DNA of 64,000 nt from Spongiibacter nanhainus (GTDB taxonomy: Bacteria; Pseudomonadota; Gammaproteobacteria; Pseudomonadales; Spongiibacteraceae). The translations under genes and the position numbers were made by a program. A model generated the notes under the pieces. It was not told the origin of the DNA. It worked only from the letters and a program-made list of their open reading frames with translations, and ran no database searches. Below, piece by piece: positions 20,037 through 26,466 of this stretch; position 1 is the stretch's first letter; every line of letters begins with the position of its first letter. The DNA lies in the NCBI RefSeq assembly GCF_016132545.1, contig NZ_CP066167.1, forward strand, positions 3,904,001 through 3,968,000. The letters run 5' to 3'.

Positions 20037-20627
20037 ATGAAGACCAACAAACGCTGGGGCCACGGCGCCCGGGTTGACGACCTCGACACCGGAAAAAAAA
20101 TTCTCCTTAAAGCCGCGATTCAGTGTTTCAACAACAAGGGCGTTCGCGCCACGACCATTGAAGACATTGCCCGCACTGCCAACGTCACCCGGCGCACGGT
20201 CTACCGCTACTTTGCCGGCAAGCCGGACATTCTCGATGCCCTGCTCCATATTGAGCGTGAGCGGTTATTCCGGCACCTGAATCAACTCACTGAAATCTAC
20301 CCCAACGACTTCCCCCGGCTCCTCGAAGAATGCATCTGGTTTGCCGCCACTTACCGCCGCCCTCAAATGGACAGCGAGGACCACTTAGATGACGACTCTA
20401 GCGAAGACAGCCTGCCCTATGTCAACGACGAGGAATGCGAAGCCCAGTGGCGCGAGCTACTCGCAGAACCGCTTCAACGCCACAACGCTCGACACGATAT
20501 CCATATTGATATCCATCACTTGGTGCCCATCGTTGGTCGACTGGCACTGATATACCGCCAATACCCCACCGAAAAACGGGAGTTTTTCTCTGCCATGCGG
20601 GCCCTGCACCTGTGTGGAAAGCAATAA
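20037..20627 (+). CDS. TetR family transcriptional regulator
   Basis: 196 residues. The N-terminal helix-turn-helix is clear: ILLKAAIQCFNNKGVRATTIEDIARTANVTRRTVYRYFAGKPDIL at about residues 22-66. The ligand domain is not diagnostic and has a very acidic stretch (DSEDHLDDDSSEDSLPYVNDEE). It is divergent from the FabH-like gene across about 276 bases, the usual layout for a regulator and its target, so control of that gene is a fair guess. The inducer is unknown. Confidence 0.85.
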   Translation: MKTNKRWGHGARVDDLDTGKKILLKAAIQCFNNKGVRATTIEDIARTANVTRRTVYRYFAGKPDILDALLHIERERLFRHLNQLTEIYPNDFPRLLEECIWFAATYRRPQMDSEDHLDDDSSEDSLPYVNDEECEAQWRELLAEPLQRHNARHDIHIDIHHLVPIVGRLALIYRQYPTEKREFFSAMRALHLCGKQ

Positions 20628-20635
20628 ATCCAATA

Positions 20636-20664
20636 TTGCGACTATAGGGATTAGCCACTATACC
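20636..20664 (+). promoter_or_regulatory. Sigma-70-like promoter for small gene 20743
   Basis: TTGCGA (20636-20641), 17 bases, TATACC (20659-20664). ACTATA occurs twice here, 16 bases apart (20641 and 20657), the second within the -10. Predicted transcription start near 20671 would give a leader of about 70 bases. Confidence 0.5.
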
Positions 20665-20690
20665 CGGTAGAAGCACGCCAACATACTATT

Positions 20691-20731
20691 TCTAACGTCA
20701 AAACTATGTCTCAGCATAGAGACACGTTAGA
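20691..20731 (+). promoter_or_regulatory. Structured leader hairpin before small gene 20743
   Basis: The right arm GAGACACGTTAGA (20719-20731) pairs with two left segments, TCTAACG (20691-20697) and TGTCTC (20707-20712), leaving a 9-base bulge on the left and a 6-base apical loop. The ribosome site AGAGG (20731-20735) begins where the stem ends. There is no T run, so this is not a simple terminator. Confidence 0.55.
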
Positions 20732-20742
20732 GAGGCACCGCA

Positions 20743-20928
20743 ATGATTGAGCAATCCAACTCCCAAACCGGTATTTTTAGCTCCAGCCGTCGCTCTGCCG
20801 CGATGATCGACCGGAGTAACACCCTGCGCTCGGAGTGGTGGCTCAATGTCGACTACGCGGAAACCATCGACCTTTCCGACAAACGCGTACTGGAGGCCCT
20901 GCGTACCCGCCCCCCGCAAAGCAGTTAG
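20743..20928 (+). CDS. Small protein with RSEWWLNV-x-YAE core, copy 1
   Basis: 61 residues, not a family I know. The core RSEWWLNVDYAETID lies at residues 29-43 and recurs in the next small gene with 12 of 15 residues identical. Across the identical residues the codons differ synonymously in four cases (Ser, Asn, Tyr, Ala), which supports a translated, conserved protein. No signal peptide or membrane segment is seen. An AGAGG ribosome site lies 7 bases before the ATG, and a hairpin leader and a sigma-70-like promoter precede it. Function unknown. Confidence 0.65.
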   Translation: MIEQSNSQTGIFSSSRRSAAMIDRSNTLRSEWWLNVDYAETIDLSDKRVLEALRTRPPQSS

Positions 20929-21077
20929 ACTCAGCTACTTCTCGTTTCTAGCGTTTAGATTCCGGCCACTCGCTCTTCATCGCCACATCGGCCAATGGGG
21001 AGCACGCCACGTTGACGCGGCGAATATTTGAAACCTACCGCTGAAGACGATACCCAGTTCACAGTTTGCAGCATAAC

Positions 21078-21106
21078 TTCACTCGATAGGGGCTTTTCCC
21101 TATACT
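21078..21106 (+). promoter_or_regulatory. Sigma-70-like promoter with operator-like palindrome for small gene 21177
   Basis: TTCACT (21078-21083), 17 bases, TATACT (21101-21106). The spacer and the start of the -10 hold a perfect inverted repeat, ATAGGG (21086-21091) and CCCTAT (21098-21103), placed where a repressor would block polymerase. Predicted transcription start is near 21113, right at the base of the following hairpin. Confidence 0.55.
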
Positions 21107-21113
21107 TCACTGA

Positions 21114-21168
21114 CCTCGTCGCCACTAGTGTTGATTGTCCGCGAAGGCAATTCTTAGTGACGGCGAGG
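21114..21168 (+). promoter_or_regulatory. Leader hairpin that pairs with the ribosome-binding site of small gene 21177
   Basis: Arms CCTCGTCGCCACTA (21114-21127) and TAGTGACGGCGAGG (21155-21168) form a 14-position stem with one G-U pair and one mismatch. A smaller hairpin lies in the loop (ATTG/CAAT and CC/GG around GCGAA, 21133-21151). The ribosome site GAGGA (21165-21169) falls almost wholly in the right arm, 7 bases before the ATG, so folding should block translation. Confidence 0.6.
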
Positions 21169-21176
21169 ACAACACC

Positions 21177-21371
21177 ATGGCAATGCATGAGACACACACA
21201 ACAACGGTTTTCGGACAGGCGGACTTCGGCACCGCGACACGTGCTTCTGGTGTCTTAAACCGCATCGGGCTAAACCGCAGCGAGTGGTGGCTCAACGTCA
21301 ATTATGCAGAAGTCATCGAATTCAAAGATGCCATTGGCATCGACACCATTCGGGCGCGGCTGGCCCGGTAG
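21177..21371 (+). CDS. Small protein with RSEWWLNV-x-YAE core, copy 2
   Basis: 64 residues from the ATG at 21177; an upstream frame to 21135 would read through the hairpin and is rejected. The core RSEWWLNVNYAEVIE is at residues 34-48, nearly the same as in the 20743 protein; outside it the two share only scattered residues and an IRAR/LRTR-like C terminus. No membrane segment or signal peptide. The HAD phosphatase gene starts 33 bases downstream, so this gene could lead the yrfG-hslR-hslO transcript. Function unknown. Confidence 0.68.
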   Translation: MAMHETHTTTVFGQADFGTATRASGVLNRIGLNRSEWWLNVNYAEVIEFKDAIGIDTIRARLAR

Positions 21372-21404
21372 ACACTACCTCCCGCCGCTCCCCGGGACGC
21401 GGCA

Positions 21405-22085
21405 ATGATTAACTGGGCTGACATCGACACCGTCCTGCTGGATATGGACGGCACTCTCCTCGATCTCCACTACGACAATTTTTTCTGGACCCAACACCTA
21501 CCGCGCCGTTTTGCCGAGATTCACGGCGGCGACCACGATTCCGTCAGCGCACAGCTGATGGATCGCATCCTCTCCGAGCGGGGTACCCTAAACTGGTACT
21601 GCCTGGATTACTGGTCCAGGGAGTTGAATCTGGATATCAGTGAGTTAAAAAAAGAGGTGGCCCACCTTATCGCCCTGCGCCCGGCCTGCGACCAGTTTTT
21701 AGAAGCTCTGAAACTCAGCGGATGTCGCAGCTGGTTAGTGACCAACGCCCACCGAGACGGCCTCAACCTCAAGCTGGAATACACCGATATTGGCCGCTGG
21801 ATAGACCAGCTGATCAGCTCCCACGATTTCGCCCTGCCCAAAGAGGACCCCAAATTTTGGGAGACCTTGCAGCACCGTCACCACTTTGAACCGTCCCGGG
21901 CACTGCTGATCGACGACAATATCCAGGTCTTGGACTCCGCCGCCCGCTTTGGCATTGGCCACCTGCTGACCATCGCCCAGCCGGACAGCCGCCAGCCCCC
22001 CAGAAGTGACTTGGCCTACCCGACACTGCATCACTTTGACGATATTTTGCCCATCCCCACCCCACAAGAGCAGCCAGCAGAGTGA
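21405..22085 (+). CDS. yrfG: YrfG-like HAD nucleotidase (GMP/IMP)
   Basis: 226 residues. HAD motif I is LLDMDGTLLD with DMDGT at residues 13-17; motif II is LVTNAHRDGL; the motif III/IV region is LPKEDPKFW and ALLIDDNIQVLDSA. The opening INWADIDTVLLDMDGTLLDLHYDNFFW is characteristic of YrfG, which dephosphorylates GMP and IMP. It is immediately upstream of hslR and hslO, the conserved yrfG-hslR-hslO order of E. coli, with overlap between yrfG and hslR frames. Confidence 0.9.
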   Translation: MINWADIDTVLLDMDGTLLDLHYDNFFWTQHLPRRFAEIHGGDHDSVSAQLMDRILSERGTLNWYCLDYWSRELNLDISELKKEVAHLIALRPACDQFLEALKLSGCRSWLVTNAHRDGLNLKLEYTDIGRWIDQLISSHDFALPKEDPKFWETLQHRHHFEPSRALLIDDNIQVLDSAARFGIGHLLTIAQPDSRQPPRSDLAYPTLHHFDDILPIPTPQEQPAE

Positions 22086-22090
22086 GCACC

Positions 22091-22525
22091 ATGAGCGACG
22101 GCACCTCTCATTCCCACCACACCAAGGCCCACCACACCGACCAAAAAGTACGCCTCGACAAGTGGCTTTGGGCGGCACGCTTTTTTAAAACCCGCAGCCT
22201 CGCCAAACAGGCGATAGAAGGTGGCAAAGTCCATTACAATGGCGCCCGCTGCAAAGTGAGCAAGGATGTGGAAATTGGCGCCCAACTCACCATTCGAGCC
22301 GGCTGGGACACCGTTGTCGTCGAGATCACGGCGCTCTCCGACCAACGCCGAGGCGCCCCCGAGGCCCGAACTTTATACCGGGAAACCGAGGACAGCGTCC
22401 GCGAGCGGCAGCGCCGCACGGCGGAGCGCAAGGCCATGGGACCGGCGGCGGGCATCCTCAGCAATGAGCGACCCACCAAAAAACAGCGCCGGCAAATTCA
22501 CCGCTTTCGTGAACAGCAGCAGTAA
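22091..22525 (+). CDS. hslR: HslR, heat shock protein 15 (S4 RNA-binding domain)
   Basis: 144 residues from the ATG at 22091; a GTG at 22082, overlapping the yrfG stop, is an equal alternative. The S4 domain is at about residues 20-65 (VRLDKWLWAARFFKTRSLAKQAIEGGKVHYNG). A basic C-terminal tail (KKQRRQIHRFREQQQ) fits RNA binding. Hsp15 binds stalled 50S subunits carrying nascent chains and helps recycle them. A His-rich stretch (HSHHTKAHH) at the N terminus is an extra not present in E. coli. It lies between yrfG and hslO. Confidence 0.92.
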   Translation: MSDGTSHSHHTKAHHTDQKVRLDKWLWAARFFKTRSLAKQAIEGGKVHYNGARCKVSKDVEIGAQLTIRAGWDTVVVEITALSDQRRGAPEARTLYRETEDSVRERQRRTAERKAMGPAAGILSNERPTKKQRRQIHRFREQQQ

Positions 22526-22554: not shown

Positions 22555-23406
22555 ATGACCGACGCCATCCGTCGCTTTATTTTTGATGACTACGATATTC
22601 GCGGGGAACACATCCAGCTTGAAGGCAGCTACCGCGACATTCTCAGCCACCATCACTACCCGCCGGCGGTCGCGGCACTATTGGGACAGTTTGTCGCCGC
22701 CGCTGGGCTGCTCAGCGCCACCATCAAATTTCAGGGCTGCTTGATTCTACAGGTGCGGGGCAGCGGTGAAGTCCCACTGATCATGGCGGAGGCCCGCTCT
22801 GATGGCGGCCTCCGCGCCATTGCACGGGATGCCGGCGAGGCGCTATCCGACGACTTCCACACTCTGCTGGGCGACGGTCAACTGGCCATTACCATCGACC
22901 CCGACAAAGGTAAGCGCTACCAGGGGATCGTTAGCCTCGCCGGGGATAATCTGGCTCAGTGCCTGGAGAGCTACTTTCAACAGAGCGAACAGCTGCGCAC
23001 CCGCCTGTGGTTACACAGCGACGGGCAGCGGGCAGGGGGCTTGCTTCTGCAGGAACTGCCCGCCCATCGCCCGGCTCCGGAGTCCTGGCAGCACGTGTGC
23101 ACGCTGGCGGATACGGTGCGGGGGGACGAACTCCTCAGCCTGGCGCCCGAGGACCTGCTCCACCGGCTTTATCACCAGGAAAACCTGCGCTTGTTTGACG
23201 ACCACAGCCTGCGGTTTCAATGTACCTGCAGTCGCGAGCGCATCGAGACCGGGCTGCGCTCACTGGGCCCAGCGGAACTCTACGACATCCTCGCCGAACA
23301 GGGCAGCATCGAAACCCACTGCGAGTTTTGCCACCGCCAGTACCGCTTTGAAACCAGTGATGTCGACGCCTGGTTTGCCCAGTCCGACAGCCCCACCCAC
23401 CACTAG
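22555..23406 (+). CDS. hslO: HslO, redox-regulated chaperone Hsp33
   Basis: 283 residues. The zinc redox switch is complete: C223-x-C225 in FQCTCSRE and C256-xx-C259 in HCEFCHRQ. The N-terminal holdase domain shows YRDILSHHHYPPAVAALLGQFVAAAGLLSATIKFQG. Oxidation with unfolding stress releases zinc and activates the chaperone in the cytosol. It is the last gene of the yrfG-hslR-hslO group, 29 bases after hslR. Confidence 0.95.
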   Translation: MTDAIRRFIFDDYDIRGEHIQLEGSYRDILSHHHYPPAVAALLGQFVAAAGLLSATIKFQGCLILQVRGSGEVPLIMAEARSDGGLRAIARDAGEALSDDFHTLLGDGQLAITIDPDKGKRYQGIVSLAGDNLAQCLESYFQQSEQLRTRLWLHSDGQRAGGLLLQELPAHRPAPESWQHVCTLADTVRGDELLSLAPEDLLHRLYHQENLRLFDDHSLRFQCTCSRERIETGLRSLGPAELYDILAEQGSIETHCEFCHRQYRFETSDVDAWFAQSDSPTHH

Positions 23407-25227: not shown

Positions 25228-25397
25228 GTTTCTGTGACTTATGACTGCCTCAGCCACGGGTACCCGCGTGGCGCCATGCCCCCTAGTATGCCCTTTCTAA
25301 TTTTTCCCCGTATCGTCTCACCCAGTAGTTAAGTAGTCGGCGCACCCTTCGTCGCCGGCCCATGGCAACATCGCGACTGAAAAGTGAGGACATCTCA

Positions 25398-25844
25398 ATG
25401 AGCGAAGCAAAAAACACTGTAGAAAAAGCAAGCGGCCTGGCCAAAGACCTGTTCCTGGCAAATCTGGGCTTGGCTGGCAAAGCCTACGAGCAGGGCGTTG
25501 ACTTCGTGAAGTTCACTGAAAGCAAATACAAAGAGACCGAAAGCAAGCTGAAGGACACCTACAGCAAGCGCAACGAAATCTTTGACGGTCTGGTCGAGCG
25601 CGGCCAAAAGGTACAAGACGACGCCAAAGCCGAGTTTGAGTCTCGCACCAGCGAGATCAAGGGCAAATTCGAAGAGACCAAAAGCCAGGCCAAAGCCAAG
25701 CTTGAGTCTCTGAAAAGCGAATCTCTGGAAGAGCGCGTAAAAGAGCTGCGCGAGACTCTGGAAAGCAGCGTCGAGAAAGTCAAAGCCAAAGTTAGCCGCA
25801 AGGCCGACGATGCCACTGAAGGCACTGAAAGCGCCGCCGCGTAA
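25398..25844 (+). CDS. Phasin-like helical protein
   Basis: 148 residues from the ATG at 25398 with GAGGACATCTCA upstream; the frame from 25362 adds 12 unsupported residues. The N terminus (VEKASGLAKDLFLANLGLAGKAYEQGVDFV) is the amphipathic phasin region; the rest is a long charged coiled coil rich in Lys, Glu and Ser. Phasins coat polyhydroxyalkanoate granules and control their size. It is followed by a second phasin and a PhaD-like regulator, which supports the call. No PHA synthase is in the window. Confidence 0.72.
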   Translation: MSEAKNTVEKASGLAKDLFLANLGLAGKAYEQGVDFVKFTESKYKETESKLKDTYSKRNEIFDGLVERGQKVQDDAKAEFESRTSEIKGKFEETKSQAKAKLESLKSESLEERVKELRETLESSVEKVKAKVSRKADDATEGTESAAA

Positions 25845-26007
25845 GCATCGTCACAGTTCTGGCGGTCATTTGACCGCCTCCGCCTAGGTCTGTATCACAC
25901 CTATGCTTTGCACGATGCGCCGTAAGGACGTCGTGCTTTTTTGATTCGAGAGCGACGGGACACCCCAGCGATGGCCGTCGCCCCTATTTGCCACAGTGGA
26001 GCACACC

Positions 26008-26466
26008 ATGAGCAAAGACAGCATAAAAAGCCTGAAGGACGTTACCGGTCAGGCAGGCGATCTGGCCAAGCACATTTGGCTGGCCGGCCTGGGCGCCTAC
26101 GGCCGCGCCTACGACGAAGCCCAAGAGCGCTACGACAAAGCCAGCAAAGAAAGCCCCCGCCTGTTCAAAGAACTGGTCAGCAAGGGCAGCAAGCTGGAAA
26201 CCCAAGCCCGCGAGAAACTGGGCGATGTCAGCAGCCTGGGTAAGACCGTATCCATTGAGGAGCGCATCAGCAAAATGCGCGCAAGCCTCGGCTTCGGTCA
26301 CACGGCCAGCGCCGACGACTTGGAGCGCCTGGAGAAAAAACTGGATGCGCTGAGCAAGAAAGTCGATACCCTCAGCAAGTCCAAGGCTCCCGCTGCCAAA
26401 GCCGCAGCCAAGCCTAAGGCAGCTCGCAAAACTGCGGCTAAAAAAGCGGCGGCCAAGAGCTCCTAA
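26008..26466 (+). CDS. Phasin of the PhaI/PhaF family (PF05597) with basic tail
   Basis: 152 residues from the ATG at 26008, preceded by GTGGAGCACACC. The phasin core IWLAGLGAYGRAYDEAQERYDKASKESPRLFKELVSKG is at about residues 23-60. After a coiled coil (LERLEKKLDALSKKVDTLSK) comes an Ala/Lys tail of the histone-H1-like kind (AAKPKAARKTAAKKAAAK), which in PhaF binds DNA and helps share granules between daughter cells. So this protein is PhaF-like in architecture though short. A terminator follows. Confidence 0.85.
   Translation: MSKDSIKSLKDVTGQAGDLAKHIWLAGLGAYGRAYDEAQERYDKASKESPRLFKELVSKGSKLETQAREKLGDVSSLGKTVSIEERISKMRASLGFGHTASADDLERLEKKLDALSKKVDTLSKSKAPAAKAAAKPKAARKTAAKKAAAKSS

Follow-up and report, generated by a model that had tools for sequence, protein, structure and literature searches.

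Introduction

Leader peptides of the TrpL type are encoded by short open reading frames (ORFs) with tandem Trp codons that lie ahead of an operon and are accompanied by RNA structure. The window analysed here, a stretch of 64,000 nucleotides from Spongiibacter nanhainus, likewise contains a short ORF, tandem Trp codons and RNA structure before an operon, but differs from the TrpL type in showing no terminator-like site in a scan of the coding strand, in the non-Trp nature of the operon, in a long conserved protein motif and in the occurrence of copies away from the operon. The operon in question resembles E. coli yrfG-hslR-hslO, which was described as a putative operon with LexA-box-like sites and promoters upstream of yrfG (PMC9200703). 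The three genes and their order are the same, whereas the small-protein gene found here 26-41 nt before yrfG has no counterpart mentioned in the available part of the E. coli report (PMC9200703). The window holds two such small genes, paralogs in tandem from a hitherto undescribed family whose small cytosolic products are probably disordered.

Results

Two small genes with a common core

An initial annotation had described two tandem small ORFs with a shared core. Place and strand of both were confirmed (Table 1), and the observation turned out to be right but understated. The core R-S-E-W-W-L-N-V-x-Y-A-E-x-I indeed has 12 identities in 14 positions between the two proteins, and the reported synonymous differences were found in the codons for Ser (TCG/AGC), Asn (AAT/AAC), Tyr (TAC/TAT) and Ala (GCG/GCA). 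With 18 identities over 45 residues in BLASTP (E 6e-14), the likeness of the two proteins reaches past the core. In the whole genome of 4,078,570 bases, the core DNA pattern TGGTGGYTNAAYGT occurred at two sites only, which are these two ORFs, and not at all in the reversed control. The calculated Shine-Dalgarno duplex was -6.4 kcal/mol for the first and -6.5 kcal/mol for the second copy. Support for the first copy as a gene comes from this Shine-Dalgarno sequence, the conserved core, a match in every other genus genome and a promoter motif shared with the second copy.

When the 61-aa protein was used as query, all 17 other genomes of the GTDB genus gave matches with E 3.6e-6 or better, showing that the likeness of the core exceeds chance; two genomes of the same taxonomic family (G019 and G020, 89% and 70% complete; genomes and loci are referred to by our own G and L numbers) gave no match with this query. 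The named relatives among 11 loci belong to Spongiibacter, Zhongshania and Neomelitea. In total, the genus contains 31 copies in 18 genomes, ten of which have a single copy and eight have 2-4 copies in tandem, and the operon-proximal copy, hereafter the last copy, is present in 18 of 18. Duplication is a recurrent feature, both in the genus and in a distant family, f47. In a tree of 30 of the 31 copies, 13 of 26 forks remained open, and several upstream copies, including the first one of the window, were on long branches.

The orthologs retain the core, and the tandem Trp codons are present in all 23 rows of the genus alignment (A1), with conserved Y, A, E and I after WW. The selection on the protein that had been deduced from the synonymous codons was borne out when the seven closest last copies that agree in length (G003, G004, G005, G007, G008, G016 and G017) were compared pairwise: dN/dS was 0.03-0.17 for 19 of the 21 pairs, and the two others were one pair with saturated synonymous sites and one without any amino-acid change. 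Outside these seven, finite dN/dS values were 0.13-0.97 (highest for L033/L043) and many pairs were saturated (105 pairs of 15 last copies of 59 aa). The window's last copy differs in length and its first copy is without a close ortholog, so that neither has a dN/dS value of its own. Loss of the core or frameshifts, named beforehand as arguments against the family, were absent from the 31 copies read, with the reservation that one copy in G002 (L034 2528-2701) has the core in a frame without an ATG, GTG or TTG start. Its counterpart in G010 has a start, and the G002 copy may be decaying. Taken at the level of sequence, it is virtually certain that the ORFs are coding and that the family is real.

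The initial annotation knew no named family with this core, and none was found. The genus alignment had no credible relative in Pfam, NCBIfam, PHROGs or the PDB, and no named family in Pfam or NCBIfam fitted a wider alignment of 25 members. PF17599 (DUF5495) was the sole repeated match, reached by 13 of 23 genus members at E <= 1 and overlying the WWL core in the window's second protein. Membership in DUF5495 was rejected with a best E of 0.0033 and 18.1 bits against a gathering cut-off of 27 (17.1 bits in the organism's own whole genome), and the 25 members of the wider family did not match it. Among 14 control genomes, the sole DUF5495 match was a sub-threshold one in Methanosarcina acetivorans, and we treat the likeness as chance or a common short motif. 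Five PDB matches, none better than E 1.3, covered the WWL stretch or a short segment next to it and were likewise discarded. No Rfam RNA was detected in 20400-22200 at E <= 1. Open PMC papers yielded none for DUF5495, none for the motif and none combining Spongiibacter with 'small protein'. According to PMC8805636, proteomics data for S. nanhainus have been placed in PRIDE.

The yrfG-hslR-hslO neighbourhood

All 18 genus genomes have yrfG immediately downstream of the last copy, in the same orientation and after a gap of 26-41 nt, and in all 18 it is followed by hslR and hslO (Table 1). Upstream, the TetR gene was considered and rejected as an obligatory neighbour, as it is not always adjacent in relatives. 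Two acyl-CoA dehydrogenase-like genes (identified by eye) are located upstream of the small genes in 12 loci (L033, L037-L039, L041-L045, L048, L049 and L138) but not in the window, and this pair separates TetR from the small genes in 8 of 15 loci with TetR in reach. Just beyond pckA, the window contains two neighbouring genes (25362-25844 and 25996-26466) for what we take, by eye, to be phasin-like proteins, possibly another tandem pair.

Table 1. Positions of the small genes, their putative control elements and neighbours in the window, and of fusion proteins at two other loci
Feature	Position	Strand	Remarks
TetR-type regulator, upstream	20037..20627	+	TetR_N E 1.2e-15
Weaker promoter-like element before first copy, TTGCGA-N17-TATACC	20636..20664	+	read in sequence
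Structured leader, first copy	20677..20736	+	z -2.7; 2/200 dinucleotide shuffles as good
Small protein gene 1 (upstream tandem copy)	20743..20928	+	61 aa; IF-x(4)-RR near N-terminus; core RSEWWLNVDYAETI
Promoter-like element before last copy, TTCACT-N17-TATACT, conserved spacer	21078..21106	+	scan and conservation
Structured leader, second copy	21114..21168	+	z -2.6; 4/200 dinucleotide shuffles as good
Small protein gene 2 (operon-proximal, last copy)	21177..21371	+	64 aa; core RSEWWLNVNYAEVI; predicted C-terminal helix
Intercistronic hairpin, 1 nt before yrfG start codon	21384..21403	+	folding; no T-run in window
yrfG homolog, HAD-family GMP/IMP nucleotidase	21405..22085	+	NF011564, 211.7 bits vs cut-off 189
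hslR homolog (Hsp15, ribosome-associated)	22082..22525	+	NF007673, E 3.8e-38, 130.6 bits, under cut-off 148
hslO (Hsp33 redox chaperone)	22555..23406	+	NF001033, 283 bits vs cut-off 244
HTH-fusion proteins, family module as C-terminal part (FxDRR...WWLxxDY)	L136 4302-4946 (G066), L137 4786-5421 (G023)

Promoter-like elements and intercistronic hairpin

Separate promoters had been proposed for the two ORFs. The consensus scan picked up a single promoter, which lies ahead of the second ORF (expectation from shuffles 0.6) and is credible because it is conserved, whereas the first ORF is preceded only by a weaker look-alike that the scan did not report. Both elements have ATAGGG-N8-CTATAC in common. 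The upstream regions of 17 of 18 last copies could be aligned without gaps on the -10 box, after the element had first been placed by eye; G009 was omitted because its element is placed differently. In this alignment, TTCAC was present in 14 of 17 regions, TTTTCC(C/G)TATACT in 15 and TTTTCCCTATACT in 14. A 29-base promoter pattern with up to three mismatches was found in 9 of the 17 genomes searched, corresponding to 9 of 12 from the genus, with one site each that was always at this locus, and reversed controls gave none. The spacer of the window's last-copy element contains an inverted repeat, ATAGGG...CCCTAT. Conservation of the spacer beyond the needs of a sigma-70 promoter suggests that it may harbour an operator. 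The structured leaders reported for both ORFs were reproduced in the window sequence, and the fold of the stretch 20929-21077 was unremarkable (24 of 200 shuffles as good). The two genes may, as the initial annotation suggested, form a regulated small-protein system.

The gap between the last copy and yrfG retains a hairpin in most genus genomes, though its sequence varies. When each distinct gap was compared with 200 dinucleotide-preserving shuffles, no more than 7 of these folded equally well for 13 of the 17 gaps, and with simple shuffles 14 of 18 gaps ranked 16 or better of 500, counts that are not independent since the gaps of sister species are near-identical. No hairpin clearly above shuffles was seen in the other 4 of 17 distinct gaps (G001, G002, G010 and G014). 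In 15 of 18 genomes, the longest helix stops 2-5 nt short of the yrfG ATG. Fold energies were -8.0 to -20.8 kcal/mol for the 18 stretches before yrfG versus -3.2 to -13.1 kcal/mol for 12 stretches after upstream copies. Because the DNA alignment failed to bring the stems into register, no pair counts were derived from it. The median Shine-Dalgarno duplex was -6.35 for last copies (n=18), -2.55 for yrfG (n=18) and -1.7 for random sites; a yrfG duplex of -5 or stronger occurred in 4 of 18 genomes, and that of the window was -4.0. With such a weak Shine-Dalgarno sequence and the hairpin in front of it, translation of yrfG probably relies for its start on ribosomes that come in from the small gene.

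A wider family in the order

The genus profile alone detected at least 20 of 293 genomes of the order at E <= 0.01, 12 in the genus and 8 outside. Four of the latter (G018, G086, G116 and G143) have their match at a yrfG-hslR-hslO block, a context on which the profile carried no information. G085 has a family member at another locus and G132 a similar protein. Of the two remaining matches, the one in G031 has stops inside the frame and is probably due to chance, as is possibly the 51-aa frame in G286, which overlies a larger gene. Broadened profiles detected at least 44 and at least 47 of the 293 genomes, in 16 and 17 of 118 genera, of which the weakest may be chance matches; these order-wide searches scored 15-22 first-look candidates per genome, and one of them missed G014, which does hold the family. 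The wider family has the signature [IM]F-x-D-x-R ... DRR ... RR ... WW[LM]xx[ND]Y. The window's proteins belong to it by their WW[LM]xx[ND]Y core, and in their branch the F is kept and RR often kept, while the D and most RR repeats are missing. Comparison of the genus profile with the wider alignment without shared rows in hhalign gave a probability of 96% and E 1e-9 (single comparison) over 23 columns on the core.

Among 37 outside loci that were fetched, some of them for weak matches, 11 contain the yrfG block, and the small gene is on the same strand in 11 of 11. These loci are from G018 and all 10 positive f47 genomes, with the member 0.13-2.4 kb upstream of yrfG. In f47, the distance is 0.2-2.4 kb with an opposite-strand cysQ-like gene in between in 5 of 10 genomes, which argues against coupling to yrfG as the general role of the family. 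Judged from these loci, the small genes have long been neighbours of the yrfG block, without being tightly coupled to it as a rule. Six f47 genomes (G086, G116, G143, G188, G246 and G265) have tandem pairs, and G086, G167 and G208 carry an additional member or match at another locus.

Away from yrfG, the contexts are diverse. In G066 and G023, which belong to one genus (f4 g5), the module is fused to a Cro/C1-type HTH domain (PF13443, 27.7 and 28.4 bits, cut-off 22). The fusion suggests a portable module and may point to its partner. In G028 (and, by clustering, G130 and G179; loci L127, L155 and L146), the member precedes a thioredoxin-TPR protein, presumably CnoX/YbbN-like. A small thioredoxin-like protein also follows the member at these three loci, and at L127 the next gene has its likely start overlapping the stop codon of the member. 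A SlyD-like isomerase adjoins members in G048 (below cut-off) and G085 (by eye), and the G064 member is two genes away from msrA. In G073 (and G032 by clustering; L139 and L143), the member is longer and faces, in convergent orientation, a gene for an error-prone DNA polymerase that we assume to be imuC/dnaE2-like, suggesting that some members reside in damage-response loci. Members in G050 and G088 are near ppiB-like and, by eye, cysS/glnS/lpxH-like genes.

Beyond the order, searches of 368 genomes, with few exceptions from the same class, gave marginal matches in 3 and 8 genomes, and the full signature was absent from the 9 of 11 such loci that were read (all except L174 and L177). One of these loci, L173, from a genome (G343) of the class not shown to be in the order, has an 80-residue frame with FIDRRSEEDRR...ERR...DRR and without WWL, possibly a distant relative of the N-terminal part only.

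Predicted structure

An AlphaFold2 prediction with 19 sequences had a mean pLDDT of 54.7 and a pTM of 0.22, with no fold except a helix at 42-63 that was predicted with low confidence. Considered along with the invariant W-W-L and Y and the linkers, which are variable, the prediction is most simply read as a disordered protein that carries a docking motif, although a model of such low confidence does not prove disorder. Of the two short conserved motifs, the N-terminal one consists of an (I)F arm, expanded to F-x-D-x-R plus further RR pairs in the wider family, and the C-terminal one of WWLxV-(N/D)-Y-A-E followed by a presumptive short helix.

Discussion

We propose that the small proteins most likely work as adaptors or modulators, which would dock on a presumed partner via their invariant aromatic motif, whereas the variable linkers of the paralogs would tune specificity. 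The last copy, with its own conserved promoter-like element and good Shine-Dalgarno sequence, is the likely first cistron of a small gene-yrfG-hslR-hslO unit that is presumably read as a single transcript. Ribosomes ending the small gene would melt the hairpin and pass translation on to yrfG, resulting in co-production of the small protein and the nucleotidase/Hsp15/Hsp33 module. Translational coupling of the small gene to yrfG is fairly probable from the arrangement of the sequences; for the combination of a disordered two-motif adaptor with an operon-proximal copy that gates yrfG, we consider the case evenly balanced.

The hairpin, the weak Shine-Dalgarno sequence of yrfG and the short gap would also fit a cis-acting leader, where translation of the last ORF gates yrfG-hslR-hslO, the protein is dispensable and the tandem Trp codons, present in every row of A1, possibly have a sensing function. 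Such a leader is distinctly unlikely in view of the low dN/dS that the closest orthologs show along the entire protein, the conservation of Y, A, E and I past WW, the retention of the motif in upstream tandem copies and in f47 copies away from yrfG, and the existence of the HTH-domain fusion. Moreover, the only terminator-like site that the scan of 20500-21500 returned is on the other strand, with none on the coding strand, and WW is located 26-28 codons upstream of the stop in the window's two ORFs, far from the hairpin. A protein function in stress proteostasis, together with Hsp15 and Hsp33, could be envisaged if an Arg-rich arm bound RNA or the ribosome and WWLxxNY a protein partner. The DRR/RR repeats of the wider family and the company of Hsp15/Hsp33, or elsewhere of the thioredoxin-TPR protein and the SlyD-like isomerase (below cut-off), speak for this ribosome- or RNA-linked factor, which we nevertheless hold to be unlikely: the window's own branch has degenerate RR repeats, and since other members adjoin the gene for the error-prone DNA polymerase or have cysS/glnS/lpxH-like genes nearby, the chaperones may be neighbours by chance.

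If the module instead bound RNA polymerase or a regulator, the paralogs would be small co-regulators. This explanation draws on the Cro/C1-type HTH fusion in the two f4 genomes and on the presence of TetR upstream, both in the window and in relatives, but the fusion was seen only in these two genomes of one genus and the acyl-CoA dehydrogenase-like pair intervenes in 8 of the 15 loci with TetR in reach, making a regulator partner decidedly improbable. Small size and varying tandem copy number would also fit antitoxin, phage-derived or otherwise mobile small genes. However, the genus neighbours are another copy, yrfG, TetR or the acyl-CoA dehydrogenase-like genes, with no adjacent toxin gene, and no other gene lies between the two copies in the window. 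Viral contigs contained no relative of the first protein, PHROGs matches were at chance level and plasmids had no match of an f47 member, while synteny is preserved across families, so that a mobile origin is hardly credible.

Returning to the adaptor reading, its extension to the whole order, as a two-motif family that docks on one common partner, with tandem duplications, an HTH fusion in one genus and, in the window's genus, hairpin-wiring to the translation of yrfG-Hsp15-Hsp33, is possible but tentative. If it were true, synthesis of the small protein would be a licence for making the yrfG-Hsp15-Hsp33 stress operon. Beyond what had been noted before, the analysis places the small genes in a wider family marked by an N-terminal F-x-D-x-R, locates them at the head of yrfG-hslR-hslO and adds the intercistronic hairpin and the conserved promoter-like element before the operon-proximal copy. 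What is new is a family that has its own signature and genomic address, carries no name in the libraries searched and has a likely cis role at one operon. Strongly selected small proteins without a family name represent a large blind spot of annotation, and here the motif, the orthologs, the promoter-like element, the fusion and the fixed genomic address provide handles for study. At stake are the target of the WWLxxNY motif and whether the output of Hsp33 and Hsp15 depends on a small protein.
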